Shown here piece after piece: positions 1 through 12,844 of a stretch of 14,233 nucleotides of DNA. Position numbers and translations under genes: made by a program. This stretch comes from Bacteroidales bacterium (GTDB lineage Bacteria; Bacteroidota; Bacteroidia; Bacteroidales; VadinHA17): assembly GCA_003155705.1 (NCBI GenBank), contig PMEC01000192.1:1-14233 (forward strand). The letters are read 5' to 3'. The notes beneath the pieces were generated by a model. That model was not told the DNA's origin, searched no databases, and saw only the letters and a program-made list of their open reading frames with translations. Positions within the stretch are counted from its first letter, which is position 1. Each line of letters begins with the position of its first letter.

Positions 1-2780
1 CCATTCATGTATTTCAGCATTGAAATAAGTAGTTGTTTTGTTACAGGCCGCTCTTCAATTTTATCTTTCATATCGATGCTGCAAACCATGATTTTCCCAT
101 TTCCGATTCTGGTTTCAAATGCCAGGGCAAGACGCCTGTTCTCAAACCATGTATCAATAGGCTGAATAAGTGGACGTAATTCAGCCGGGAATTTATCAAG
201 TATCATTGCCTGTGAATGCGTGATAGGGTCCCACCACTGCCAGTTACTGTGAAACTCAGTAGGAAACTCGCTGAATACGGCATGTTTTGGATCACAAAGA
301 ATTCCTAAAGTATGAGGCGGCTGATTATGTGTCCAGGCAGTGTTCCAAAAGATGCTGGAGAAACCTATTGCGACCTGAGCACCTTTTTCTTTTCCAACTT
401 TTCCAAATGTCAGTAACAAGACCGAACCACCCTTCTTTAAAATATTTTCAGTTTTTGAATCCAGTTTTTCAGTAACAACAACTTTCCCGGGATCAATTTC
501 CTGTTTTGCAGGATAGACCCAGAAATCCCATCTGTTTTTAAAAGCAGTGTTTTTAATTGAAACTTCAAGTGTTAGTTTCTGGGGAGTAACAATCTTTGCC
601 AGATCCATTAAAACAGCACTCACCTGAATATTATTCCCAATTTTAATTTCATTTAGTGTAACGCTGTCGGAGTGAATGGATTCACCTTTTGAATTTACAA
701 TATGAGAAAGTATTACCGCTTTTTTTATTGGTTTTGCACCGAAATGAGCTATTTCAATATCAGCTTTAAAAACTTCATCGGTTGTAAAAACCTCTTTTTT
801 CATTCTTGCGAGAGGAACCGTCTCATTGCAAAACATTCTGAACTCTTCCGGAGTAACGTACCCTTTTGATTCAAAGAAAGGATTCAGTATCCCAACAAGC
901 GCTGAACCCTGGCCAGGGAAATCATGAAGCTGAAGCAGCTGAAACCCTGCAAAACCGGGAGTCCTCAGAGCAGCCTCAATATCAGCCTTATAGCACAGAA
1001 CCTGAAGCTTACCAGAAGCCATCAGGAAATCTTCTGCCTGGCTGCCCATTTTGTTTTCATCCAGCGTTTCACGGAATATTTCAAAGTTAGTAGCCTTCAG
1101 AACACCGGTATATTTTGCGATCTCTTTAAAATCGGGATAAACACACCACTGTCCGATCTCGTGACTCACTGTCGGAACATTATATTTTAAGACGAAATCG
1201 CGATAATCAAACATCGTCTGAGGTGATTCCGCGTTTATTATGCTTTTCAGGCCCTCACCCCAATGCTGAATCCGTGGTTCAGACGAAAGGTTATAATCAT
1301 TTTCAGGAATTATGGGCCATCCTGCACCTGAGGTATAGACCCTGCGATTATCTGTTGATTTCCAGTATTTTACTAATTTTCCAAGGTATTCCTTCTGGTT
1401 TTTCCCGGCAGGTTCATTTCCATAAGCGAGCATACAGAATGACGGGTGATTTCCATACGCTTTCAATATCCTGTCACTCTCGTCATATATAAACCTGTCG
1501 ACCGGGAGACTATCGCCGATTGAAGTTCCCTGGTTGGCCCATGAACTGCACTCAATATGAAAATAGATTCCGAGTTTATCGGCAGCAATGAAAGCTGCTT
1601 CAGGTGGACACCACGAATGAAAGCGTATGTGATTCAAACCATAATCTTTGCAGGTCTGCAACACTTTTTCCCAGGAATTAACATCTGTTGGAGGGTATCC
1701 TGTCAGTGGAAAAATACAACACTCGAGCGTTCCTCTTAAAAAGACCTGCTGACCATTGACCTCAAACCGGGTACCATCAGCTTTAAATTCGCGCATTCCG
1801 AAATCAACTGATTTATTGTCAATTATGTTTCCCTTTGAATCTTTCAGATTAACTATTAATTTATATAGTGAAGGATTATGCTCACTCCACAGTTGCATCT
1901 TCCTTCCAAGGGAATAATTGACAACCAGCTGGATTTTTCCCGACATTGTACTGACCTTAACAACTTTTCTGCCCAGACTTCCGGGATTATTCGAGTTAAA
2001 ACTTTCTGCACTAAGAACTATTTTCCCTTTAAAAGGAGTGCCCGGCTTATTGTTCAGGGCGACAATCACTCGGGCAGTTTTGGAATGAATATCAGGATAA
2101 ACCTTAATATCACTGATAAATACCGGTGAAGTTGCTTTCAGGCAGATATTTCCGGTTATTCCATTCCAGTTTGACTGAGTGTGATCGCTAATGCTATGAG
2201 AGTTAACCCCTATTGGAATTATCATCCTGTTATCAATTCTTATGCTTATTAAATTCTTTCCAGGGACAAGCAACTCAGTTATATCATATTCATGTGGTGT
2301 TGCAAGACTGTTCTGGCTTCCTGCCAACCAGCCATTTACATAAACAATCGACTCCCAGTGACATCGTTCCAGAATGAGCTCAATATGTTTTCCTTTCCAT
2401 GCTGCAGGCAAATAAATTTCCTTCTGGTACCATGCGGCTCCTTTGTAGTACTTGACCGGTTTTAGCCAGAAAGGTATTTTAATATTATCTGCCTGACGAT
2501 ACTTTTCATATTTTTTATCAGTGAAATACGACTTATCAATTATATCGCCGGTCCAGTTTGTTTTGAGTGTGACCCCATTACCCTTACCATTTTCAGCCAT
2601 AGAACCCGGAAGCTTAACTGTTTCACTGCTGATCTCATTGTACCATTTGTTTTGAATTCCCTGGTCCAGTGAATCGATTCTGAATTTCCATTCACCTGCA
2701 AGGGAAAGCTTTTGCTGAACATCTTTATTTTGATTGGTGCACGCACCCATAATCAGAATAAGAAACATCAATTTCTTCAT
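1..2780 (-). CDS. Glycoside hydrolase family 2 lipoprotein (beta-galactosidase-like), 3' end outside window
   Basis: The frame is open from ATG at 2778-2780 to the left edge (926 codons, no stop), so the C-terminus is missing. The N-terminus is a short hydrophobic signal with a slightly atypical lipobox (MGAC, Cys14), suggesting a lipoprotein. The layout fits GH2: a beta-sandwich sugar-binding domain (about 30-220, with LPGSM and a WYQKEIYLP strand), an Ig-like domain (about 225-335), and a TIM barrel (about 340-640) opening with VNGQQVFLRG. The barrel carries acid/base Glu456 in YGNEP and the likely nucleophile Glu541 in SHEIGQ. Both catalytic residues are present, so the enzyme should be active. 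A further beta-sandwich and a Rossmann-like region (GGSVLLLT, about 778 onward) follow the barrel. It lies 31 bp after the sugar transporter and downstream of the GH53 galactanase, which favours trimming of galacto-oligosaccharides. GH2 also includes beta-glucuronidases, mannosidases and arabinosidases, so the substrate is inferred from context only. Confidence 0.88.
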   Translation of the reverse strand, partial: MKKLMFLILIMGACTNQNKDVQQKLSLAGEWKFRIDSLDQGIQNKWYNEISSETVKLPGSMAENGKGNGVTLKTNWTGDIIDKSYFTDKKYEKYRQADNIKIPFWLKPVKYYKGAAWYQKEIYLPAAWKGKHIELILERCHWESIVYVNGWLAGSQNSLATPHEYDITELLVPGKNLISIRIDNRMIIPIGVNSHSISDHTQSNWNGITGNICLKATSPVFISDIKVYPDIHSKTARVIVALNNKPGTPFKGKIVLSAESFNSNNPGSLGRKVVKVSTMSGKIQLVVNYSLGRKMQLWSEHNPSLYKLIVNLKDSKGNIIDNKSVDFGMREFKADGTRFEVNGQQVFLRGTLECCIFPLTGYPPTDVNSWEKVLQTCKDYGLNHIRFHSWCPPEAAFIAADKLGIYFHIECSSWANQGTSIGDSLPVDRFIYDESDRILKAYGNHPSFCMLAYGNEPAGKNQKEYLGKLVKYWKSTDNRRVYTSGAGWPIIPENDYNLSSEPRIQHWGEGLKSIINAESPQTMFDYRDFVLKYNVPTVSHEIGQWCVYPDFKEIAKYTGVLKATNFEIFRETLDENKMGSQAEDFLMASGKLQVLCYKADIEAALRTPGFAGFQLLQLHDFPGQGSALVGILNPFFESKGYVTPEEFRMFCNETVPLARMKKEVFTTDEVFKADIEIAHFGAKPIKKAVILSHIVNSKGESIHSDSVTLNEIKIGNNIQVSAVLMDLAKIVTPQKLTLEVSIKNTAFKNRWDFWVYPAKQEIDPGKVVVTEKLDSKTENILKKGGSVLLLTFGKVGKEKGAQVAIGFSSIFWNTAWTHNQPPHTLGILCDPKHAVFSEFPTEFHSNWQWWDPITHSQAMILDKFPAELRPLIQPIDTWFENRRLALAFETRIGNGKIMVCSIDMKDKIEERPVTKQLLISMLKYMN

Positions 2781-2811
2781 TATCAATATTTTATTAGATT
2801 ATGCTTCGAAT

Positions 2812-4203
2812 TCAAATAAGTTCTTTTTCAATCTCTTCGAGTGACTTTCCTTTTGTCTCCGGCAATTTTTTGAAGATGAACCAGAATCCGAGCAAACAAA
2901 TAAAACCATAAAGCCAGAATGTACCGGATGCTTTTAACATTTTATTCAGTAACGGGAATGTGTATGTCAGAACAAAGCAGGCAGCCCAAAGTGAAAACGT
3001 TGCAATTGACATTGCAGCTCCGCGTACTTTGTTAGGAAAGATTTCTGAAAGAACTACCCAAACCACCGGACCCAGTGTCATTGCAAAACAGGCAATTGTA
3101 AGAACTACCATAATTAGCAAGGGTAATCCCTGAATATGGAAAAAATACATACTGCCCATCACAAAATAGATTCCTGCAAGTCCACCTGCACCAAGAAGCA
3201 TAAGTGCTTTACGTCCAAGCCTGTCTACAGTAAACATTCCGACAAAAGTAAAAATCATGTTTACACTTCCAGTTATTACTATATTAAAAAGTGTATCTGA
3301 AACGCTATATCCGGCTTTGGAAAATATTTCCTGGGCATAGTTAAATATAACATTTATACCGCACCACTGCTGAAATACTGCCAAAACTATACCCAAAATC
3401 AAGAGTTTGGAGACACCAGGTTGTTTCAAAAATCGCAGATTGGTTTTTTCAGTAGTTGTCTTAAATGTCTCCTCTATTGAACTGAGTTCCTCAACTGCAT
3501 AATCATTACCTCCAATTTTTGCAAGTATGCTTATTGCTTTTTTATGATTTTCTCTTTTCTTTGCCAGCCATCTCGGGCTTTCCGGAACAAACCACATTAG
3601 GATGAAAAATAGTCCGGCAGGAATGGAACAGGCATAAAACATCCATCTCCAACCAGTTTGTCCATTCCAGGAAGACATGATATCGGCAGTTGTGGCGCCT
3701 TGAGGTACTGGTTGTGCGATCCTGTAATTAATAAGTTGAGCCGCAAGAATTCCTATAACGATTGTAAGCTGATTTATAGAAACAAACCTCCCTCTGACAT
3801 TTGCTGGTGTAATTTCAGCAATATACATCGGGGAGAGATTTGATGCCAGACCAATTCCAATTCCGCCAAGTATACGGAAAATAATAAAACTTCCCAAAGA
3901 ACCTGCTGATCCGGTCCCAAAAGAGGCTGCAATAAATAAAACCGCAGAAAGTATCAATAGCTTCTTTCTCCCATATCTGTCACTCAACCATCCTGATAAT
4001 GCTGCACCTCCAAGACATCCAATCAGGGCGCAACTCATTGTCCAACCTTGCATTGACGGGCTGGTCGTAATGCCGAAAAAAGTTTCATAAAATGGTTTTG
4101 CCCCTCCTATAACCACAAAATCGTAACCAAAAAGGAGACCACCCATTGCTGAAGCAAGGGAAATACTTATCAAATAGGTCCAGTTGTACTTATTTTCTTT
4201 CAT
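2812..4203 (-). CDS. Sugar-porter family MFS transporter (XylE/GalP-like sugar:H+ symporter)
   Basis: 463 residues, full length for the sugar-porter family, with about twelve hydrophobic segments. Family signatures appear in order: GGLLFGYD at 21-28 (Asp28 sits where XylE has its proton-coupling aspartate), SDRYGRK at 74-80 in the first cytoplasmic loop, PESPRWL at 207-213 closing the N-terminal half, QQWCGIN at 278-284 (the sugar-contacting QQxxGxN motif of TM7), DRLGRK at 327-332, the GPVVWVVLSEIFP segment at 378-390, and PETKG at 448-452. It should import a monosaccharide or small oligosaccharide across the inner membrane, driven by protons. It sits between the GH53 galactanase (22-23 bp upstream) and the GH2 enzyme (31 bp downstream), so galactose or a related sugar released by these enzymes is the likely cargo. 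Specificity cannot be read from sequence; xylose, glucose or arabinose remain possible. Confidence 0.93.
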   Translation of the reverse strand: MKENKYNWTYLISISLASAMGGLLFGYDFVVIGGAKPFYETFFGITTSPSMQGWTMSCALIGCLGGAALSGWLSDRYGRKKLLILSAVLFIAASFGTGSAGSLGSFIIFRILGGIGIGLASNLSPMYIAEITPANVRGRFVSINQLTIVIGILAAQLINYRIAQPVPQGATTADIMSSWNGQTGWRWMFYACSIPAGLFFILMWFVPESPRWLAKKRENHKKAISILAKIGGNDYAVEELSSIEETFKTTTEKTNLRFLKQPGVSKLLILGIVLAVFQQWCGINVIFNYAQEIFSKAGYSVSDTLFNIVITGSVNMIFTFVGMFTVDRLGRKALMLLGAGGLAGIYFVMGSMYFFHIQGLPLLIMVVLTIACFAMTLGPVVWVVLSEIFPNKVRGAAMSIATFSLWAACFVLTYTFPLLNKMLKASGTFWLYGFICLLGFWFIFKKLPETKGKSLEEIEKELI

Positions 4204-4226
4204 GCTCGCAAAACAAGCCCACAGGT

Positions 4227-5654
4227 TTATCTTAAATAGTTTTTATTCAGCTCATTGTAATCTTTGAGTGTTTTTGTGGCTTCCCCGTCCCTGCTGAAGA
4301 AAATATTAATTGGTTCCCATATAAATGTACCTTCTCCCCTGTTCTCAGGAAGGTCGAACACAATCTTATGTATTTCGTTCTTGAATTGCGAGTATTCAAC
4401 AACATTAATGAATTTTTTATATCTCATCAGGAGATCGTTGGTATTGAATTTCAGATCATCAAGAGTTCCATGCCATCTTGGATAGTAAGACAAACCAATA
4501 ACATCAAAATTAACTCCCCGTGCAATCATATTGTCCAGCCAGAAGATAGCTTCCCTGTTCTGACCTCCAAGCGCCAGATGGATCATAATGACAATCGAAG
4601 TATCAACCTCCTTCACACCTTCAATCCCGGCATTAAGAAGTTCAGCCAGATTGTCCAGGTTGCCGATATGACCATCAGGCCATAACATTCCATGATTAAT
4701 TTCATTTCCAATCTGAACCATTTCAGGAAGGGTCCCCTGATCTTTTAAGGCAATAAGTACTCTTTTTGTGTAGGTTTTCATGGAATCTTTCAAGGTTGGA
4801 AAATCAAGATTCTTCCAGGCATCAGGTTTATTTTGCTGCTGCGGGTCGGCCCAATAATCGCTGTAATGAAAATTCAATAACAGTTTTAATCCTGCCTTCT
4901 TCGCTCTTAATGCCATTTGCTTTGTGTATTCAAGTCCGCAAAATCCTTTACCCGGAGAATATCCCTTTTCTTTTTCAGGATTTACAAACAGACGGAGACG
5001 GATGAAGTTAATTCCGTTATCGGAGAGGATCTGCATGATATCCTTTTCAACGCCATTATCTTTAAATTTCCTTCCACTTGCTTCAAGCTGAGGGGTAAAG
5101 GAGATATCAGCACCAATACTTCTGGCTATGATTTTTTTAACAGGTTTTACCTGGTCGGCTGAAGGTTTAAGAAGTTTAACATCGGGATTGATTGTGTGAA
5201 TTTCATGAGATCCGGGCCAAAGACTATCAGATTTTACTTCAACTTTAATTCTGTCTGGTTTGGTTCCCGCCTGAAATATCAGAGGGCAGGATCCCTTAAC
5301 CAGTTTGCTTTCCCAGGTCGAAGTACCATTTTCAGATTTTAAGAGAGTTACAGAAGTTCCGTTCTCAGTCCCTGCAATTTTTGCATCACCTGTTATTGAA
5401 ATCTTAATAGGCAGTTCTGCTGAAACAATTTCTCTTCCGGCACTGTCCACAACAAACGCTCTGATCAATGTCTTGTCTTTCCCGTCCGCAAACATGGTTG
5501 TTGTATAGGTTGTCATTACAACACCGACAGGTTTGCCGGAAGCTACCCTGCTTACTGAATCAAATTCAGATTGAGTTTCTGATTTTTTACCATTGCCGCA
5601 ACCAGAAAGGAGCAACAATGGAATAAGTGTAAAAAACACATTTATTCTTAACAT
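4227..5654 (-). CDS. GH53 arabinogalactan endo-beta-1,4-galactanase lipoprotein with N-terminal Ig-like domain
   Basis: 475 residues. The signal peptide ends in a clear lipobox, LLSGC (Cys19), so the enzyme is a lipoprotein, probably at the outer membrane. Residues about 40-150 form a beta-rich domain (MFADGKDKTLIRAFVVDSAG) resembling the Ig/invasin-like modules found on Bacteroidota GH2 and related enzymes. The GH53 TIM barrel runs from about 180 to 475: GADISFTPQLE at 181-191, FIRLRLFVNP, LLLNFHYSDYWADP at 258-271, acid/base Glu318 in QIGNEINHG, SYYPRWHG at 389-396, and probable nucleophile Glu420 in NVVEYSQ. GH53 enzymes cut beta-1,4-galactan, the side chain of pectic rhamnogalacturonan I and type I arabinogalactan. 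The barrel is complete and both catalytic glutamates are present. The gene lies 49 bp after the MetV-MetF gene and directly before the sugar transporter, on the same strand, so it is probably co-transcribed with both. The family assignment is strong; the exact galactan is not determined. Confidence 0.94.
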   Translation of the reverse strand: MLRINVFFTLIPLLLLSGCGNGKKSETQSEFDSVSRVASGKPVGVVMTTYTTTMFADGKDKTLIRAFVVDSAGREIVSAELPIKISITGDAKIAGTENGTSVTLLKSENGTSTWESKLVKGSCPLIFQAGTKPDRIKVEVKSDSLWPGSHEIHTINPDVKLLKPSADQVKPVKKIIARSIGADISFTPQLEASGRKFKDNGVEKDIMQILSDNGINFIRLRLFVNPEKEKGYSPGKGFCGLEYTKQMALRAKKAGLKLLLNFHYSDYWADPQQQNKPDAWKNLDFPTLKDSMKTYTKRVLIALKDQGTLPEMVQIGNEINHGMLWPDGHIGNLDNLAELLNAGIEGVKEVDTSIVIMIHLALGGQNREAIFWLDNMIARGVNFDVIGLSYYPRWHGTLDDLKFNTNDLLMRYKKFINVVEYSQFKNEIHKIVFDLPENRGEGTFIWEPINIFFSRDGEATKTLKDYNELNKNYLR

Positions 5655-5703
5655 ACCTGTTAATTTATTGATAATTAAAACGATATAATAAATTCAAGTA
5701 AAT

Positions 5704-7143
5704 TTATTGTTGCTTGAGACCGGCATCGTCAATTATTCTCTGAACCGTCGATTCACACCCGAATGTCATAAGATGAATACCATTTACTCCCTGCTTTTTC
5801 CTGATAGTATCAATAAGTTCCAGAGCAATAGTTATTCCCTCCTCATGCGCATTGTCTCCGGCTCTTTCGATCCGATTAATTATCTTTTCCGGGATAGTGA
5901 CCCCGGGAATTTCTTGATTTAGATGAAGTGCAACTTTTATACTTCTCAGGGGCGCAATACCCACAAGAATAAATACTTTTCCCAGGATATCTTTTTTGTA
6001 AAGCTGTTCAAGCCACCTGTCAAGTCCATCCGGATCAAAAACCAGGTTGGTCTGAAGGAACTGAGCTCCGGCATTGATTTTCTTATGCTCCCTCATTGCC
6101 TGGAAATGAGGCTCTGAGGCAAAAGGGGAAGCGGCTGCTCCGAGGAAAAACTTAGGTGGATGTTTCATCTGCCTGCCATCGAGGTAAATACCATCATCCC
6201 TCATCCGGCGAAGTATCCAAAGCATCTGAACGGAGTCAATATCAAGTATCTCCATACTGCTTTTTGGAGCTGGTCCGATTCTCGGACTGTCGCCGGAAAT
6301 ACACAAAATGTTGTGAATTCCGAGGTTTTCAGCTCCGATAACCCTAGACTGAAGACCGGTCCTGGTATTATCACGTGCTGTTATCTGAAGCACCGGCTCT
6401 GCATTCATACCTGCAGCGATTGTACAGCAGGTAAAAGCTGACATTCTAGGAAAAGCTGAAGAACTATCTGTAAAGTTTATAGCAGCTACATGTGGTTTAA
6501 CGAGTTCAATATTCTCTTTAAGACGCTTTATGTCAGCATGTAATGGAGGAATAATTTCAGTAGTAACAACAAACTCTCCATTTCGTAGTTTTTTCTCAAG
6601 TTCAGAAGCCGGTTCAGAATAACCGGGTGGATGATAATCTGAATCTCCTTTCCACCAATCAGGCTGCCTGACAGGCCGGAAAACACTTTCCCATACCTCC
6701 CTTCGCTCAGGAAGACTTTTTTTGAAAAGACCTTTGATAAAAAAAGAGGTGCCAACTTTTTTTATCTGCCTCACAACGTCACCCCATGTCTCCGTACCAA
6801 CTTTGTCCCAGTCGAGAGGTGGAAGGACTTCCATAAGTCTCTCTTCTCTACCCATTCTGACTGACTTATCATAGATGCAATACCAGATACATTTCCGGGT
6901 TTCATCGACATAACATTTTTCCGGTGTTGCTCCGCCACATGGTCCGTTTCGCAATCCTTTGGGACATTCCATACAACATATGAAAGCAGTCTCCTGCAGA
7001 AGGCAGTTACCGCACATACGGCAACCGAAGAGCGGACCCTTTACCAGTAACTCAGTTTTTTCGAGCAGACGTAGGGAAAACTTCTCCTTTTTAAAGGGAT
7101 AGAAGGCAGGCTGCCATCTTCGGGAGGGTGTGAAAAGAGACAT
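5704..7143 (-). CDS. Fused MetV-MetF methylenetetrahydrofolate reductase
   Basis: 479 residues joining two parts that are separate genes in acetogens. The N-terminal part (about 25-125) is the MTHFR_C/MetV-type Cys-rich domain. It has Cys at 41, 44, 47, 56, 57, 60, 69, 77, 85 and 89, including CRMCGNC, GPCGG and CIWYC patterns that suit iron-sulfur or zinc binding. The C-terminal part (about 188-479) is the FAD-dependent MetF barrel: TTEIIPP with Glu196 at the catalytic position, NFTDSS at 223-228, QITARD at 253-258, CISGD at 281-285, QTNLVFD at 364-370, and GIHLMTFG at 455-462. The reaction interconverts methylene- and methyl-tetrahydrofolate. The start overlaps the MeTr stop by one base (TAATG), so the two are translationally coupled. 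Next to corrinoid methyltransferases it probably oxidises methyl-THF delivered by demethylation, although the reductive direction for methionine synthesis is possible. The electron partner is unknown, and no HdrABC or MvhD gene is visible. Confidence 0.9.
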   Translation of the reverse strand: MSLFTPSRRWQPAFYPFKKEKFSLRLLEKTELLVKGPLFGCRMCGNCLLQETAFICCMECPKGLRNGPCGGATPEKCYVDETRKCIWYCIYDKSVRMGREERLMEVLPPLDWDKVGTETWGDVVRQIKKVGTSFFIKGLFKKSLPERREVWESVFRPVRQPDWWKGDSDYHPPGYSEPASELEKKLRNGEFVVTTEIIPPLHADIKRLKENIELVKPHVAAINFTDSSSAFPRMSAFTCCTIAAGMNAEPVLQITARDNTRTGLQSRVIGAENLGIHNILCISGDSPRIGPAPKSSMEILDIDSVQMLWILRRMRDDGIYLDGRQMKHPPKFFLGAAASPFASEPHFQAMREHKKINAGAQFLQTNLVFDPDGLDRWLEQLYKKDILGKVFILVGIAPLRSIKVALHLNQEIPGVTIPEKIINRIERAGDNAHEEGITIALELIDTIRKKQGVNGIHLMTFGCESTVQRIIDDAGLKQQ

Positions 7144-7979
7144 TATTTATTTTGAGAACATTCAATAAACCTCATTGCAAAATCATCCCGTCCAAGAACC
7201 AGATCTGCTGCACGGACAGCTGCGGTAATCTTTTCAGGATTTGCTATAGGACAAGTGAGTCCATTTTTAATTGAAAGTACCATGTGTGCAATATTAAGCA
7301 TTTCCCTTGCAGGCAGACCAAAAGAGATATTGCTGGCACCCTGTGTAATATTCAGTCCAAGTTTTTCATGAACCAGCCTTATTGTCTCAAGAGTGACGAG
7401 GCATGCATGAGGATCAGCACTGACTGCCATAGCTAATGGATCAATAATTACATCCTCTTCTTTAATACCCATTTGTACGGCCCTGTTGACTATCTTTTCA
7501 GCAATTGCAAGTCTTTTATAAGGATCGTGTGTGATGCCGTCATCATCCATTGTCAATCCGATTACAGCAGCGCCATATTCTTTTGCTATCGGAAGAATAG
7601 CATTCATTGATTTTTCTTCACCATTTACAGAATTAATCAGGCATTTTCCCACAATAACTTTCAGTGCAGCTTCAATTGCTTTGGGATTGGGTGAATCGAG
7701 ACATAGAGGTACGTCAAAATGACTCTGCAATTGTATTACTGTTTCAGGCAGCAGTTTCACATCATCAACACCCGGAAAACCAACATTTACATCGAGCATA
7801 TCAGCCATCGCATCTATCTGACTTTTAGCCAGTTCCAGAACGTAACCAAAATTTCCTTCCTGTAAAGTCGATACAAGTTTTTTTCTCCTTGTCGGATTTA
7901 TGCTTTCCCCGATAATGATAACCGGGCCTTCTGTGTTGATGATTACCTCTTTTGTTTTGCTCCGGAGTATTGTCTTCAT
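7143..7979 (-). CDS. Pterin-binding (MeTr family) methyltransferase, methyl-corrinoid:tetrahydrofolate type
   Basis: 278 residues forming one pterin-binding TIM barrel, like AcsE, the pterin domain of MetH, and methyltransferase II of O-demethylases. Motifs: IGESINPTRRK at 23-33, DVNVGFPG at 63-70, LDSPNP at 94-99, INSVNGEE at 115-122, LTMDDDGIT at 142-150, IIDPLAMAV at 178-186, and GASNISFGLP at 214-223. GASNISFGLP is the family signature and separates it from dihydropteroate synthase. The expected role is moving a methyl group between the adjacent corrinoid protein and tetrahydrofolate, giving methyl-THF for the MetV-MetF enzyme encoded next. An upstream in-frame TTG at 7995-7997 would add six residues and overlap the corrinoid gene. 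The ATG at 7977-7979, seven bases past the corrinoid stop, is preferred because the TTG version adds only an unconserved MLADDK. The stop overlaps the next start (TAATG). Confidence 0.9.
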   Translation of the reverse strand: MKTILRSKTKEVIINTEGPVIIIGESINPTRRKKLVSTLQEGNFGYVLELAKSQIDAMADMLDVNVGFPGVDDVKLLPETVIQLQSHFDVPLCLDSPNPKAIEAALKVIVGKCLINSVNGEEKSMNAILPIAKEYGAAVIGLTMDDDGITHDPYKRLAIAEKIVNRAVQMGIKEEDVIIDPLAMAVSADPHACLVTLETIRLVHEKLGLNITQGASNISFGLPAREMLNIAHMVLSIKNGLTCPIANPEKITAAVRAADLVLGRDDFAMRFIECSQNK

Positions 7980-7986
7980 CTTATCA

Positions 7987-8655
7987 TCAGCTAACAAGTT
8001 GACTAAGATAATTCACTGCTCCCTGAGGATCCGGAGAATAAAAGTCAGCGCCGATTTTATTGCAGTAATCCTGTGTGACCGGTGCTCCTCCAACAAGGAT
8101 TTTCGAAGACGCTGATCTTGACTTAATATCAGTAACTATTTTTTTCATGTTTTCCATTGTTGTGGTAAGTAGTGCCGAAAGACCGATAACAGCATCAGGT
8201 TTTTCACCCAATGCTTTAAGGAACTTCTCACTGCTGACATCAACACCAAGGTCAATGACTTCCCAACCGCCGCCTTCGACCATCATGGCAACCAGGTTTT
8301 TACCAATGTCGTGAAGGTCCCCTGTGACCGTACCTATAATGAAAGTCCCTTTGCGTTTAGTTTCACCTGATTGGAAAAAAGGTTTCAGGTGTATCATGGC
8401 ACCGCTCATTGCTTTTGCAGACATGAGCATCTGAGGGACATATATCTCCTTACGACTGAACTTGTTACCAACATTTGCCATAGCAGGGATCAATGCTTTT
8501 TCAAGAATCTCATCGGGTTTAAACCCCTGTTCCAGCGCTTTTCTGGCAAGTTCATCGGCACCATCCTGATCTTTCATATTTGGTGGATAAGGTGAAGATT
8601 TGTTTATCTTACCTGCCTCCACACAAAGAGCAATTTGATTTAAAATATCACTCAT
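7987..8655 (-). CDS. Corrinoid (B12-binding) protein, MtvC/MttC/MtaC-like methyl carrier
   Basis: 222 residues, the usual length of stand-alone methyltransferase corrinoid proteins. Residues about 1-95 are the helical cap (B12-binding_2 type; ILEKALIPAMANVGNKF and IYVPQMLMSAKAM are typical). Residues about 102-222 are the Rossmann-like cobalamin domain, with the DxHxxG motif as Asp113-Leu-His115-Asp-Ile-Gly118; His115 should be the lower axial cobalt ligand. GLSALLTTTM at 158-167 and LVGGAPVT at 187-194 complete the B12 pocket. The protein carries the methyl group as methyl-Co(III) between a substrate-specific methyltransferase (most likely the UroD-family neighbour upstream) and the MeTr protein downstream. 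Such proteins normally need a reductive activase (RACo/RamA type) to rescue inactive Co(II). None is encoded in this window, so it must lie elsewhere. The methyl donor cannot be inferred from this subunit alone. Confidence 0.93.
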   Translation of the reverse strand: MSDILNQIALCVEAGKINKSSPYPPNMKDQDGADELARKALEQGFKPDEILEKALIPAMANVGNKFSRKEIYVPQMLMSAKAMSGAMIHLKPFFQSGETKRKGTFIIGTVTGDLHDIGKNLVAMMVEGGGWEVIDLGVDVSSEKFLKALGEKPDAVIGLSALLTTTMENMKKIVTDIKSRSASSKILVGGAPVTQDYCNKIGADFYSPDPQGAVNYLSQLVS

Positions 8656-8725
8656 GGGTTTATTATTAAATTAGTTCTAGATGATTTCATTTATGTAAAA
8701 AAAAGATTCACTAAGATAAATATTT

Positions 8726-9982
8726 CTATTTAATCTCCTTTAATGTTTCAAGCATTGCAATTACATTTTCGAAAGGAACATTAGCCTGGATATTATGAAC
8801 AGTATTAAATACAAATCCTCCGTTCCTATTCAGTATCTCACACTCTCTTTTTACCTGATCTTTTACCTCCTGTGGTTTTCCGAAGGCAAATACGCCCTGA
8901 GTATCAACGCCTCCACCCCAGAAAACTATATTATCGCCATACTTTCTTTTTAGGTTCTGAGGTTCCATTCCTGTTGCATTTATCTGAACCGGGTTTATGA
9001 TATCAAATCCGGAATCAATGAACAATGGTAAAAACGATTCTACAGCACCGCAAGAGTGTTTAAAGGTTTTCCAGGTAGTGTTGAGATGGATCCAGTCATT
9101 TACCTTTTTATAGTAAGGCAACCACAGATTTTTGTAAGTCTCAGGTGAACAGAAAGTTGAATTCTGTGTACCAAAGTCTGTACCGCAAATAAACACAGTA
9201 TCTATCCTGTTTCCAATGACATTGAATATTCTTTTCAGATTCGCGACAGCGATATCTGTTTGTCTGTCATATAGTTCCCTGATGAAATCTGCCCTGGTAA
9301 GTGTGGACATGTACCATTCAGCCACTCCTCTGATCCCTTTTGGTTTTTTTAGGTTCAAACCCGGAACAAGAGCTATATCTCCAAGTGCTGTTCCGCCAAG
9401 AGATGCCATAATCCCTTTATCATTATCTTTCAGTGAGTCAATCTGATTCTTCCAGTAGACAAGCTCATTTTCAGAAATGGGACCGAATTCTTCAAGATTA
9501 TCTTCAATACTAAGTTTTGATTCATCAATTGGTTCCTGTCTTTCTATTGCATCGAAGAAATATCCTGATTTAGGCATCATTCCGCATGGCGAAACTGATG
9601 TATCTCCTTCAGGATATATCATGATGCCACCTTTATTGTTATGAGTGTAATTAAAATTACCAGGTAAGAGAACCTCCTGCCCCCATAAAGTCCTATGGTG
9701 TTTCCAGTTTTCATTCGGAATGCCGAACATATTCTTCGCAGAAAACAATCCGATTACATCGATATCCATCTCTTTTATCAACTCACTATCAACTTCCCCC
9801 AGCATTTGGTATGGCTCAGTTACTTTTACAGGACGTTTTTCAAGGCCATAATAATCCCGGAGTTTTTCCACAATCATGACGTGAATACCCGTAACACCAG
9901 TTGAACCAAAATCAACAACAACTCCATCTGGCTGCTTATGATTTATAGTATTTATAAAGTTTATCCGGGAATTGCTAACCAT
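8726..9982 (-). CDS. Uroporphyrinogen-decarboxylase-family protein, probable corrinoid-dependent methyltransferase I
   Basis: 418 residues of the UroD/MtaA/MtvB superfamily, longer than true HemE (about 350). It opens with an INFINTINHKQPDGVVVDFG segment typical of the family's non-heme branch. The core has CGTDFGTQNSTFCSPETYKNL (about 266-286), where true HemE has substrate-binding signatures. It also has KHSCGAVE (308-315), whose His309-x-Cys311 pair matches the zinc site of MtaA/MtbA-type methyltransferases. The usual third ligand is a C-terminal Cys; here the matching region reads FNTVHNIQANVP, so His396 may substitute. In zinc-dependent relatives the metal activates the methyl donor or acceptor for transfer to cobalamin. 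Being first in the run and directly before the corrinoid gene suggests the substrate-specific demethylating subunit. Many close family members in carbohydrate loci are uncharacterised, so the substrate is unknown. A role in heme synthesis is unlikely. Confidence 0.8.
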   Translation of the reverse strand: MVSNSRINFINTINHKQPDGVVVDFGSTGVTGIHVMIVEKLRDYYGLEKRPVKVTEPYQMLGEVDSELIKEMDIDVIGLFSAKNMFGIPNENWKHHRTLWGQEVLLPGNFNYTHNNKGGIMIYPEGDTSVSPCGMMPKSGYFFDAIERQEPIDESKLSIEDNLEEFGPISENELVYWKNQIDSLKDNDKGIMASLGGTALGDIALVPGLNLKKPKGIRGVAEWYMSTLTRADFIRELYDRQTDIAVANLKRIFNVIGNRIDTVFICGTDFGTQNSTFCSPETYKNLWLPYYKKVNDWIHLNTTWKTFKHSCGAVESFLPLFIDSGFDIINPVQINATGMEPQNLKRKYGDNIVFWGGGVDTQGVFAFGKPQEVKDQVKRECEILNRNGGFVFNTVHNIQANVPFENVIAMLETLKEIK

Positions 9983-10108
9983 ATTCTGATTATTTTTCTG
10001 TTAATAACTTAACATCAAAGGAAATGATTTTTATGCAATTTTGATATGAGGGAGAAAATAAGACAAGAAAAAGTCAAAGGATATTAAATTGATCATTTGG
10101 GTCAGTAT

Positions 10109-10247: not shown

Positions 10248-11543
10248 ATGAAAACTATTTTCAAATATCTTTACCTCACAACAATTGCTTTGGTTTCATA
10301 TTTATTAATTTCATGTAATCCTACATCACCAAAAGAAAAATTCCGTTCTTCTGTTCAAATTCCGACTAAAGGAAACAGCTGGGTCACAAATATCATTACC
10401 GATAATGAAAAGATGATTTCTGATTCTGGAATTACAAACTGGACTAATACCGGTTCAATTATTCAGACTTACTTCAGACTTGAACATACCGGCCCGATCA
10501 ATGTGGCTATCCGTGCTAAAGTAAAATCAGGTAAGTCAAAAATACTATGCTCCCTCGGTTATAAATCAATAGAAATTTCTTTTTCGAACAGTGCATTAGA
10601 TACAATTTATATTGGAACATTTAATATTTTAAAAACAGGATATCAGTCACTTAAAATGAAGGGACTGACAAAATCCGGTTATTCTTTCGCTGAAATATCT
10701 GATATTCTCATTTCAGGAGAGGCAACTGGCGGAAAAGTTAATTATGTAAAGGATGATTTTTACTGGGGACGCCGGGGTCCATCGGTTCATTTAAGATATG
10801 ATATACCGGATGGTGCAAAAGATATTGTCTGGTTTTATAATGAGGTTACTGTTCCAGAAGGCAATGATGTCCCAGGGTCTTATTTTATGGCTGACGGATT
10901 TATGGATGGCTATTTCGGGATGCAGGTAAACGGACCCGATGAAAGGAGAATTTTATTCTCAGTATGGAGCCCATACAAAACTGATAACCCCAAGGATATT
11001 CCTGAAGATTACAGGATTAAACTATTGAAAAAAGGTGAAGATGTCCATGCGGGTGAATTCGGCAGTGAAGGTTCCGGAGGACAGAGCTATAAAAAATTAA
11101 TGTGGAAAGCAGGAACAACCTACAGATTTCTTCTGAAAGGAGAACCATCATTAAATAAATCAACCGATTACACAGCATATTTTTTTGCTCCTGAAGTTGG
11201 CAGCTGGCAGCTGATTGCCAGTTTCAGGAGACCAGAAACAAATAATTACCTGAAAAGTCTCTACTCCTTCCTTGAAAATTTCCTGCCTGAAACAGGATAT
11301 ATCACAAGGCGTGCGTTGTACTCAAATCAGTGGGTCTGTATAAAAGGAGGTAAATGGTTTGAGATTACTTCAGCCAGGTTAACAGCTGATGCCACTGCAA
11401 AAAAAGAGTCAAGGCTCGACTATTCCGGAGGAATCGAAAATGGAGCATTCTTTCTGAAGAACTGCGGATTCCTTAATGAAACGACAGAGATTAATACTGT
11501 GTTTTCAAGAGGAATGACAGGGAAACAGCCGGATATTAAATAA
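10248..11543 (+). CDS. DUF5077/DUF3472 domain lipoprotein of unknown function
   Basis: 431 residues. The signal peptide ends at LISC (Cys23), so it should be a lipoprotein. An N-terminal DUF5077-like region (about 35-158) starts with VQIPTKGNSWVTNI. The DUF3472 domain (about 185-390) is recognised from the conserved stretches SYFMADGFMDGYFGMQVNGP (211-230), ERRILFSVWSPYKTDNP, GEFGSEGSGGQSY (269-281), TYRFLLKGEP and YTAYFFAPE, followed by a C-terminal FFLKNCGF. DUF3472 proteins are common in Bacteroidota polysaccharide loci, and their biochemical role is not established; a carbohydrate-binding or surface role is a guess from context. The gene is divergent from the methyltransferase/galactan operon and ends at a strong hairpin. 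It may belong functionally to the same locus, but the opposite strand means separate transcription. Confidence 0.9.
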   Translation: MKTIFKYLYLTTIALVSYLLISCNPTSPKEKFRSSVQIPTKGNSWVTNIITDNEKMISDSGITNWTNTGSIIQTYFRLEHTGPINVAIRAKVKSGKSKILCSLGYKSIEISFSNSALDTIYIGTFNILKTGYQSLKMKGLTKSGYSFAEISDILISGEATGGKVNYVKDDFYWGRRGPSVHLRYDIPDGAKDIVWFYNEVTVPEGNDVPGSYFMADGFMDGYFGMQVNGPDERRILFSVWSPYKTDNPKDIPEDYRIKLLKKGEDVHAGEFGSEGSGGQSYKKLMWKAGTTYRFLLKGEPSLNKSTDYTAYFFAPEVGSWQLIASFRRPETNNYLKSLYSFLENFLPETGYITRRALYSNQWVCIKGGKWFEITSARLTADATAKKESRLDYSGGIENGAFFLKNCGFLNETTEINTVFSRGMTGKQPDIK

Positions 11544-11608: not shown

Positions 11609-12172
11609 TTATTTATTCGATGTTGCCTGATCGTTAAAAGATATGCTTCTTTTTACATTATCTTTCTCAACAGTAACGCGGACATGCTGTTCTACACTAG
11701 TAAAATCATTATCATGATAATATTTGATGATCTCTTTGTTTCCCACAACCTTCCAGTCTTTGTATTGACTTTTTGATAGTTTATCCATTACAGTCGGAGA
11801 AAGAGCCGCATCTTTTGCCACTTCTCTGGTTTCTATAAGATCGCCATTTGCAGCATAAACCGCCCACAAGTCACCACCTTTATCTGTTTTCATTGTGACT
11901 TCGAAGCGATTGAGCTTAATATCAGATGCTCCGACATCATAAACCCATCCATATTCCTTTAATGCAAACGGGAACTTTGACCATGTAAGTTGATTATCTT
12001 TATTAAACTCAGTGTTAACTGCTTTGAGAACAGCGGGAGGAACCTGATCTTTTGTAATTGTTGCATTCACAACAGGAACGCGATCATTAGGATTGTAGTC
12101 GTGATCGACTTGTGCTAGCAACGGGAATAAAAATCCCGCCAATGCTAAAACTGAAACTAAAACTCTTTTCAT
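11609..12172 (-). CDS. Secreted PepSY-like (putative beta-lactamase-inhibitor-like) protein
   Basis: 187 residues with a clear Sec signal peptide (MKRVLVSVLALAGFLFPLLA, probable cleavage LLA|Q after residue 20). No lipobox Cys is present, so it should be exported to the periplasm or beyond. The mature part has the pattern of the Bacteroidota PepSY-like/BLIP-like family: VPPAVLKAVNTEF, then a TWSKF...YGWVYDV segment, RFEVTMKTDKGGDLWAVYAANGDLIETREV, and a second helix, LSPTVMDKLSKSQYKDWKVV, followed by beta strands. These proteins are thought to adopt PepSY-type alpha/beta folds. Most have no known partner, and the name does not imply beta-lactamase inhibition. It is monocistronic, convergent with the DUF3472 gene and divergent from the SnoaL-like gene. 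The family call rests on pattern resemblance and is moderately secure. Confidence 0.72.
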   Translation of the reverse strand: MKRVLVSVLALAGFLFPLLAQVDHDYNPNDRVPVVNATITKDQVPPAVLKAVNTEFNKDNQLTWSKFPFALKEYGWVYDVGASDIKLNRFEVTMKTDKGGDLWAVYAANGDLIETREVAKDAALSPTVMDKLSKSQYKDWKVVGNKEIIKYYHDNDFTSVEQHVRVTVEKDNVKRSISFNDQATSNK

Positions 12173-12481: not shown

Positions 12482-12844
12482 ATGAGTTATTACGACAAAG
12501 CCAAAAACGTGTATGACATGATGGCACAAGGAAAAATGCTTGATGCATTTGAAAAATACTATCATAAAGATGTAGTGATGGTTGAATCTACTGGTGAATC
12601 CCGCAAAGGGAAAGACGCTAACAGAAAATTTCAAGCCGATTTTTTGGGTATGATAAAGGAAGTTCATGGATCTGGAGTAACAGCTGTAACCTCAGATGAA
12701 AAAGCAGCCGTAACCATGGTTGAATCGTGGATGGATGTGACATATAAGGATGGTAACAGGGCTAAAATGGAGGAGGTTGCTGTTCAGAGATGGAAAGGCG
12801 ACCAGATAATAAATGAAAGATTTTATTATAACATGCCGAAATAG
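12482..12844 (+). CDS. SnoaL-like / NTF2-like small protein
   Basis: 120 residues with no signal peptide, so cytoplasmic. The pattern is that of SnoaL-like NTF2-fold proteins: an N-terminal helix (YDKAKNVYDMMAQGKMLDAFEKYYHKDVVMVESTG), a GKDANRKFQADFLGMI helix, and then curved beta-sheet strands (VTAVTSDEKAAVTMVESWMDVTYKDG, KMEEVAVQRWKGDQIINERFYYN). The length matches stand-alone single-domain family members. The fold supports small-molecule isomerases, cyclases and many proteins with no known reaction. The central acidic residues could line a pocket, but no substrate can be named. It appears monocistronic: the upstream gene is divergent and a terminator follows 35 bp after the stop. Fold assignment is fairly secure; function is unknown. 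Confidence 0.78.
   Translation: MSYYDKAKNVYDMMAQGKMLDAFEKYYHKDVVMVESTGESRKGKDANRKFQADFLGMIKEVHGSGVTAVTSDEKAAVTMVESWMDVTYKDGNRAKMEEVAVQRWKGDQIINERFYYNMPK

Follow-up and report, generated by a model that had tools for sequence, protein, structure and literature searches.

Corrinoid O-demethylases such as MtvABC, Odm, Vdm and MtoABC share a UroD-superfamily methyltransferase I, a corrinoid protein and a pterin-dependent methyltransferase II, as set out in the accessible parts of two reports (PMC8630106, PMC13222342). The same three parts are encoded in the window, by which we mean the whole of a 14,233-nucleotide contig of a Bacteroidales bacterium (GenBank assembly GCA_003155705.1, contig PMEC01000192.1): a UroD-superfamily methyltransferase I (UroD1), a B12-domain protein with a DxHxxG motif (Corr), and MeTr. 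Unlike the named systems, whose known substrates are methoxyaromatic, UroD1 is accompanied by a sugar porter and glycosidases and displays a His-Cys-His site. MetF-type oxidation of the methyl group, as it occurs in acetogens, is likewise represented in the window module. On balance, we favour the reading that UroD1 is an oxygen-independent O-demethylase for an imported O-methyl sugar, the methyl group of which would be transferred to tetrahydrofolate (THF) and then oxidised. Within this reading, a corrinoid methyltransferase role for UroD1 is very probable and a sugar ether is its likely substrate, while the identification of that ether as methyl-galactose is possible but rather doubtful.

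In marine Bacteroidota, a P450 route for 6-O-methyl-D-galactose likewise demethylates methyl-galactose within a galactan-use locus and, according to the portion of the report available, yields formaldehyde (PMC10033563); here, no P450 was matched in a family scan of 10 window open reading frames (ORFs), and the methyl group would pass to THF without oxygen. An initial annotation of this DNA had proposed just such an oxygen-free alternative to the P450 route, and while the lack of a P450 match among the scanned ORFs agrees with that proposal, an imported sugar in the cytoplasm is a likelier substrate than the polymer it had also envisaged. Type 1 mlp clusters, which are widespread, have UroD-superfamily proteins and a corrinoid protein in common with the window and differ from it in possessing three Mlps, Ram/RACE, a mostly His-Cys-Cys site and a link to methylated selenium or sulfur compounds, as far as the accessible part of that study describes them (PMC10418091). 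The galactan-directed portion of the locus includes the same glycoside hydrolase (GH) types as BT4151 (GH2) and the GH53 galactanases, although the window GH2 is truncated by the contig end and scores below the BT4151 cut-off, and no SusCD was matched among the window ORFs scanned. Corrinoid demethylation of sugars was not found in the open-access literature, as covered by titles and the beginnings of abstracts with most subscription journals outside this scope; the corrinoid demethylation encountered there concerns aromatics, amines, haloalkanes and selenium compounds, and for sugars the oxygen-using P450 route was the only one encountered. In the text of a Stordalen Mire study (PMC10805028), neither a word starting with sugar nor one starting with Bacteroid occurs. 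The novelty lies in the proposed substrate class, in the variant active site and in the glycosidase pairing; the components are of known kinds.

The window constitutes one entire contig (C229) of a 3.2 Mb genome (G000) that is 76% complete, and its closest named relatives are Bacteroidales metagenome-assembled genomes (MAGs). Seven genes lie together on the minus strand in the order UroD1 (8726..9982), Corr (7987..8655), MeTr (7143..7997), a fused MetV-MetF (5704..7143), GH53 (4227..5654), a sugar porter (2812..4203) and GH2 (3..2786, open at the contig end), separated by 70, -11, -1, 49, 23 and 25 bp. The initial annotation had listed these seven genes on one strand, and all are present with families backed by profile matches; its range of gaps, -1 to 70 bp, was correct at the maximum and missed the minimum of -11, and the span of 4227-9982 that it assigned to the methyl module and the galactan genes together ends before the porter and GH2. 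The 11-bp overlap depends upon the TTG start of MeTr, the first in frame, and would be abolished by use of an inner ATG at residue 7. A consensus scan listed zero terminator-like sites on the minus strand from UroD1 to GH53, a scan that says little about transcription because its counts across the region equal those of shuffled sequence (terminators, 7 versus 8.2; promoters, 26 versus 25.7).

Assignment of UroD1 to its superfamily follows from a match to PF01208 (52.4 bits, cut-off 23.9), with the MtaA/CmuA family TIGR01463 matched at 55.8 bits, below the cut-off of 235.4. An identity as HemE was rejected, since no match to TIGR01464 was obtained at E 0.001. The site proposed to bind zinc consists of a His-x-Cys at codons 309-311 (9050..9058, minus strand), aligned with the HNC of MtaA-like UroD2 proteins, and a His at codon 396 (8795..8797, minus strand). 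All 52 UroD1 proteins aligned share H309, C311 and H396, and each of these residues has a frequency of 1.00 in 86 orthologues; four MtaA-like UroD2 proteins in an alignment show His-x-Cys as well, but with a Cys in the H396 column. According to the accessible text of Kountz and Balskus (PMC10418091), S-methyltransferases of the UroD superfamily are, with some exceptions, His-Cys-Cys, and in its O-methyltransferases one or both Cys are replaced by carboxylates or non-ligands. The His-Cys...His arrangement of UroD1 corresponds exactly to neither pattern; it departs from the His-Cys-Cys zinc site of type 1 mlp proteins, argues against an S-type enzyme and is compatible with an O-substrate. The only chain recovered in a UroD1 profile search of the PDB was CdmB, a weak match (E 0.053), and the available part of one report describes CdmB as a superfamily member that works without zinc (PMC13222342); metal binding by UroD1 is therefore not assured.

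The same site bears on the alternative that UroD1 acts on a methylthio or methylseleno compound, in the manner of the MtaA-like proteins of type 1 mlp clusters. Membership of the same superfamily speaks for this, as does a homocysteine methyltransferase domain in one operon described below, but the third zinc Cys column is His in the 52 aligned UroD1 proteins, while mlp enzymes are mostly His-Cys-Cys in the part of the study seen (PMC10418091), and sugar genes are found among the neighbours; we regard this alternative as very unlikely.

Among the partners of UroD1, Corr resembles MtgC and MtbC and would serve as the Co(I)/CH3-Co(III) carrier. It matches PF02607 and PF02310, its best solved chain is 1y80, and its top NCBIfam names, MtgC/MtbC, all fall under their cut-offs (NF047996, 183.8 bits against 370). 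Its DLHDIG (8302..8319, minus strand), which we take to be the cobalamin motif DxHxxG, is invariant in 4/4 aligned sequences. MeTr, the putative methyl-corrinoid:THF methyltransferase (methyltransferase II), matches PF00809 and NF005719 (262.2 bits, cut-off 259), its solved relatives including MeTr and MetH. MetV and MetF constitute one gene, with a MetV-type DUF5981 domain N-terminal (residues 35-113) and an MTHFR domain C-terminal (182-475), and its product is predicted to convert methyl-THF to methylene-THF. The endo-beta-1,4-galactanase GH53 is assigned by PF07745 (293.9 bits, cut-off 24) and by its best solved chain, 7osk, an arabinogalactan endo-1,4-beta-galactosidase; it also bears an N-terminal domain of the GH2 C-terminal type, GH2_C5 (PF18565), an unexpected fusion. 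The porter belongs to the sugar porter family of major facilitator superfamily transporters (TIGR00879, 370.8 bits, cut-off 237.8) and is XylE-like, reaching 427.9 bits against PRK10077 XylE, short of the cut-off of 608. For GH2 the best NCBIfam name is exo-beta-1,4-galactosidase BT4151 (NF049890, 1279.6 bits, under the cut-off of 1500).

Recurrence was assessed in 97 unique loci. Four of these (L076-L079) hold paralogues, and in seven the UroD pieces are shorter than 380 aa; orthologue counts refer to the 86 loci with UroD1 identity of at least 40% and coverage of at least 80%. Eight loci without a labelled UroD from greedy ORF calling (L125, L130, L137, L139, L148, L150, L155, L156) were left out of one locus set, and neighbour counts are lower bounds because loci end at contig or fetch limits. 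UroD1 orthologues of 46-86% identity occur on 80 contigs from named MAGs, which bear the labels Bacteroidota, Chlorobiota, KSB1, Neomarinimicrobiota, Acidobacteria, Planctomycetota, Verrucomicrobiota, Armatimonadetes, Hydrogenedentes, Spirochaetales, and Clostridia and relatives. Within the window's genus, 28 of 36 genomes carry UroD1 (at least 55% identity, some partial), as do 3/24 genomes of other families of the order (at least 49% identity) and only 3/394 other genomes across the phylum (E 1e-60); a plasmid collection returned three records, all remote partial matches.

In 38/86 orthologue loci, UroD1 has a same-strand homologue of the window's porter no more than two genes away; in 26/86, across four phyla, a homologue of the window's GH2 is nearby, and both are present in 20/86. 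A search for the gene order in relatives, suggested by the initial annotation, finds that the link between UroD1 and glycan genes recurs. The association of the methyl module with glycan use, which that annotation had also proposed, recurs in relatives as well, although the conserved glycosidase partner is UroD1 with the porter and not the four-gene block. Both neighbours are concentrated in the close clade (porter 26/35, GH2 23/35) as compared with loci outside it (porter 12/51, GH2 3/51). The three GH2 loci outside the clade comprise one from KSB1 above the BT4151 cut-off (L124) and two below it, from Verrucomicrobiota (L153) and Planctomycetota (L160); BT4151 was the best name for all four locus GH2 proteins checked, with one above the cut-off. 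Further neighbours of UroD1 include GH35, GH29, GH106, GH120 and GH123. In several genus loci, a 3-keto-disaccharide hydrolase, a Gfo/Idh oxidoreductase, a TIM-barrel isomerase and a second porter precede UroD1; in L042, L048 and L082 the hydrolase, Gfo/Idh and isomerase genes stand directly before the porters and UroD1, a set that we take to be a 3-keto glycoside route.

In the 51 loci outside the close clade, Sugar_tr accounts for 13/109 operon neighbours and at most 1/108 farther genes (Fisher p 0.001). The control comprised 108 genes at least five places away in the same loci, from 119 drawn at random with a size limit out of 153 distant genes, 11 having been left out without a fixed rule, mostly those reaching the locus end; minimum lengths differed (130 aa for neighbours, 200 aa for controls), and the first 25 of 111 neighbour families and of 158 control families were listed. 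B12-binding and GH2 were each found 5 times among neighbours and at most once in the control, and neither enrichment is significant alone (Fisher p 0.21 if the control count is 1, 0.06 if it is 0).

Ferulate decorates pectic side chains, a point in favour of the alternative that UroD1 is a methoxyaromatic O-demethylase of the vanillate/veratrole type, acting on ferulate-like groups joined to galactan by ester or glycosidic links. The UroD-superfamily O-demethylases MtvB, OdmB, VdmB and MtoB do act on methoxyaromatics, in the accessible part of one report (PMC13222342), yet no esterase family is found among the scanned window ORFs or in the first 25 of the 111 listed neighbour families, the transporters are sugar porters, and the partners include beta-galactosidase-type GH2, GH38 and GH29, all of which leaves this alternative fairly unlikely.

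Association of UroD1 with Corr itself is less frequent and appears to be of multiple origin. In 9/86 orthologue loci a same-strand Corr is found no more than 3 kb from UroD1, and the tree requires a minimum of four gains or losses to account for this linkage. One clade (99/94) unites the window with L081 and L090; Corr is downstream of UroD1 in all three, lying in L081 beyond a divergent AraC gene. In Acidobacteria, the order RACo-Corr-UroD1 is found in L131 and L147, with a second UroD in between in L136. All three UroD1 genomes of the phylum-wide survey are among the 24/394 with Corr (E 1e-45; 2e-4), and the 3 UroD1 genomes among the 24 from other families of the order are exactly the 3 that encode the RACo activator. 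An independent operon in another Bacteroidota family (G318, L203:3097-14650, minus strand) has UroD1 and Corr adjacent, in the order SDR, GH42, phosphomannose-isomerase-like (weak), UroD1, Corr, MtaA-like, MetH-activation-like (weak, E 6e-5), second UroD-like, homocysteine methyltransferase and sugar porter. The methyl acceptor there may be homocysteine. The G318 operon also resembles a methionine synthase split into its parts and supplied by a demethylase.

The sister genes in L081 and L090 are relevant to the possibility that the window is an assembly chimera of two metagenome loci. Its gene order is unique in the set and it is a single contig of a draft genome, but GC content is even across 1-10000 (0.38-0.45), Corr lies downstream of UroD1 in both sisters, and a chimera would need two joins in one locus because the insert is flanked by UroD1 on one side and porter-GH2 on the other, which in most cases stand next to each other; a chimera is accordingly most improbable.

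To characterise the module, 40 loci with a Corr or MetV match were fetched, 34 from the genus and six from other families. Corr is present in 38/40, and 29/40 hold Corr, MeTr and MetVF together. In the genus, Corr-MeTr-MetVF mostly forms a separate locus, and the four-gene block beside galactanases is therefore seen only in G000. A gene for a protein of about 233 aa (L178:6207-6911 and homologues) is present in 26/38 Corr loci and follows Corr-MeTr-MetVF in much of the genus; its representative matches the activation domain of cobalamin-dependent methionine synthase (PF02965, E 9.6e-11), and we infer that this stand-alone protein is possibly an S-adenosylmethionine-dependent reactivator replacing RACo/RamA. 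RACo is present in 8/36 genus genomes and MetV (PF12225) in 32/36, as compared with 2/24 genomes of other families for MetV. Four loci (L188, L191, L193, L196) have an AraC regulator and a formate-THF ligase beside the module, with an MtaA-like UroD in L196 as well.

This distribution also suits the alternative in which several methyltransferases share the methyl module as a general one-carbon unit, its place beside galactan genes being accidental. Its mostly separate location, its presence in genus genomes without UroD1 (e.g., G005, G007, G011, G016, G025) and the uniqueness of the merged order are in its favour. Against it, the module in the window separates UroD1 from the porter, which in most cases comes directly after UroD1, the two being neighbours in 26/35 close-clade loci, and Corr has joined UroD1 repeatedly; a module shared by several UroD enzymes would also be compatible with sugar-ether demethylation by UroD1. 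We judge an accidental position quite unlikely.

With respect to the fate of the methyl group, CdhC of carbon monoxide dehydrogenase/acetyl-CoA synthase was matched in 0/60 genomes, and acetogenesis was rejected on this count; formate-THF ligase is present in G000, and on these results the methyl group would be oxidised towards formate and not converted to acetyl-CoA. Apparent differences from the O-demethylases of acetogens and archaea are the lack of a CdhC match, the failure to find RACo in the 76% complete G000 and the MetH-activation-like protein that often accompanies the module in the genus. An MttB-type methylamine system was rejected (PF06253 in 3/58 genus genomes and not in G000), as was the idea that Corr-MeTr-MetVF serves solely as a split methionine synthase, since 27/36 genus genomes also have PF02607 in an ORF of at least 1000 aa, the size of MetH; G000 has no such match. 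MtaB (methanol, PF12176) was not matched among window ORFs, no genome-wide search having been made.

Several observations weigh against demethylation of an imported sugar by UroD1, or against galactose as that sugar. The seven-gene order occurs in 1/97 loci, that of the window, which gives the run the appearance of two older units joined recently, and GH53 was seen in no other locus of the set. No homologue of the window's porter lies within two genes of UroD1 in 48/86 orthologue loci, and some loci have the unrelated neighbours PPDK, peptidase M28 and ALAD. URO-D is found in 6/108 control genes and 5/109 neighbours, and these regions are therefore rich in the family generally. Among the loci fetched, that of the most similar UroD1 (L081, 86%) offers DUF5107 and GH123 as neighbours and no galactan genes, and, together with the many loci lacking galactan-type genes, speaks against methyl-galactose. 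In the window, neither a SusC/SusD pair nor a sugar kinase was found among the 10 scanned ORFs, the contig ending inside GH2. No corrinoid activator, of the RACo/RamA type or otherwise, was found in the 76% complete G000 genome, and where UroD1 occurs in the order outside the window's family, MetV is matched in G042 and not in the other two genomes, G049 and G057.

The evidence for galactose consists of GH53 and GH2 in the window, the same GH2 type in the 26 orthologue loci, and GH42 in G318. Under the reading that we favour, GH53 and GH2 would be secreted lipoproteins that cleave beta-1,4-galactan, and the porter would bring in monosaccharides, some with an O-methyl ether. In the cytoplasm, UroD1 would bind the O-methyl sugar at its His-Cys-His site, perhaps through zinc, and the Co(I) of Corr would take the methyl group, leaving the free sugar. 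MeTr would then pass the methyl group from CH3-Co(III) to THF, and MetVF would oxidise methyl-THF to methylene-THF, which would feed biosynthesis or, alternatively, yield formate and ATP via an assumed FolD and the formate-THF ligase of G000. Lipobox-like motifs are found in GH53 (LSGC, residues 16-19) and GH2 (MGAC) and, by a simple motif search, not in UroD1, Corr, MeTr or MetVF, and hydrolysis is for this reason placed outside the cytoplasm, methyl transfer inside and the porter between them. The identities and order of the genes, the conserved residues, the recurring linkage and the lack of a CdhC match are observed directly, whereas chemistry, the use of a sugar and its identity, direction, protein location and co-transcription are what we infer from sequence.

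Similar arrangements are observed for more distant relatives. His-x-Cys is conserved in each of eight UroD1 paralogues whose identity is at most about 32% (8/8), and 7/8 have the second His motif, the exception being L062. A paralogue in G000 itself (L076) adjoins GH29, those of L078 and L079 adjoin GH38, and L077 has a GH92 at a distance of two genes, on the opposite strand. A further 20 paralogue loci were picked by similarity and examined with queries that covered only some GH types; the immediate neighbour is GH38 in L215, L220 and L223 and GH29 in L217, L218 and L222 (6/20); L226 has a GH106 (197 bits), L232 a weak GH106 (56 bits) and L227 a Corr next door, and most of the others have no recognised glycosidase adjacent. 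The presence of GH38 and GH29 favours sugars over a single aromatic compound. Paralogues beside these families suggest methyl-mannose and methyl-fucose counterparts.

The genes on the far side of UroD1 comprise a DUF5077-DUF3472 protein (10248-11543, plus strand), divergent from UroD1 at a distance of 265 bp, a 187-aa protein without a Pfam match (11609-12172, minus strand), a SnoaL-like protein (12482-12844, plus strand) and what is presumably an asparagine-synthase-like gene truncated by the contig end (13099-14232, plus strand).

In mosses, algae, charophytes and pectin, methyl ethers on sugars are regarded as a hindrance to degradation, and no route for their anaerobic removal was found in the open-access literature within the scope given above. 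Tentatively, and with somewhat less confidence than for UroD1 alone, the large, uncharacterised His-Cys-His UroD clade, composed of UroD1 and its paralogues of about 32% identity, may represent diversified cobalamin-dependent sugar-ether demethylases, each paired with a glycosidase and served by a shared corrinoid hub, in about ten phyla, as the anaerobic counterpart of the P450 route. Each enzyme would have as its partner the exoglycosidase by which its sugar is released: beta-galactosidase types (GH2/GH35/GH42), alpha-mannosidases (GH38), alpha-fucosidases (GH29) and alpha-rhamnosidases (GH106). Because many UroD1-type enzymes adjoin a glycosidase that hints at the sugar, they would form a directly testable set of enzymes and substrates. 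If true, sugar-ether demethylation would provide a function for a very common group, with at least 8000 proteins scored, named UroD-like, methyltransferase or hypothetical among the 120 matches listed, and would add a source of methyl groups in anoxic sediments and fens.

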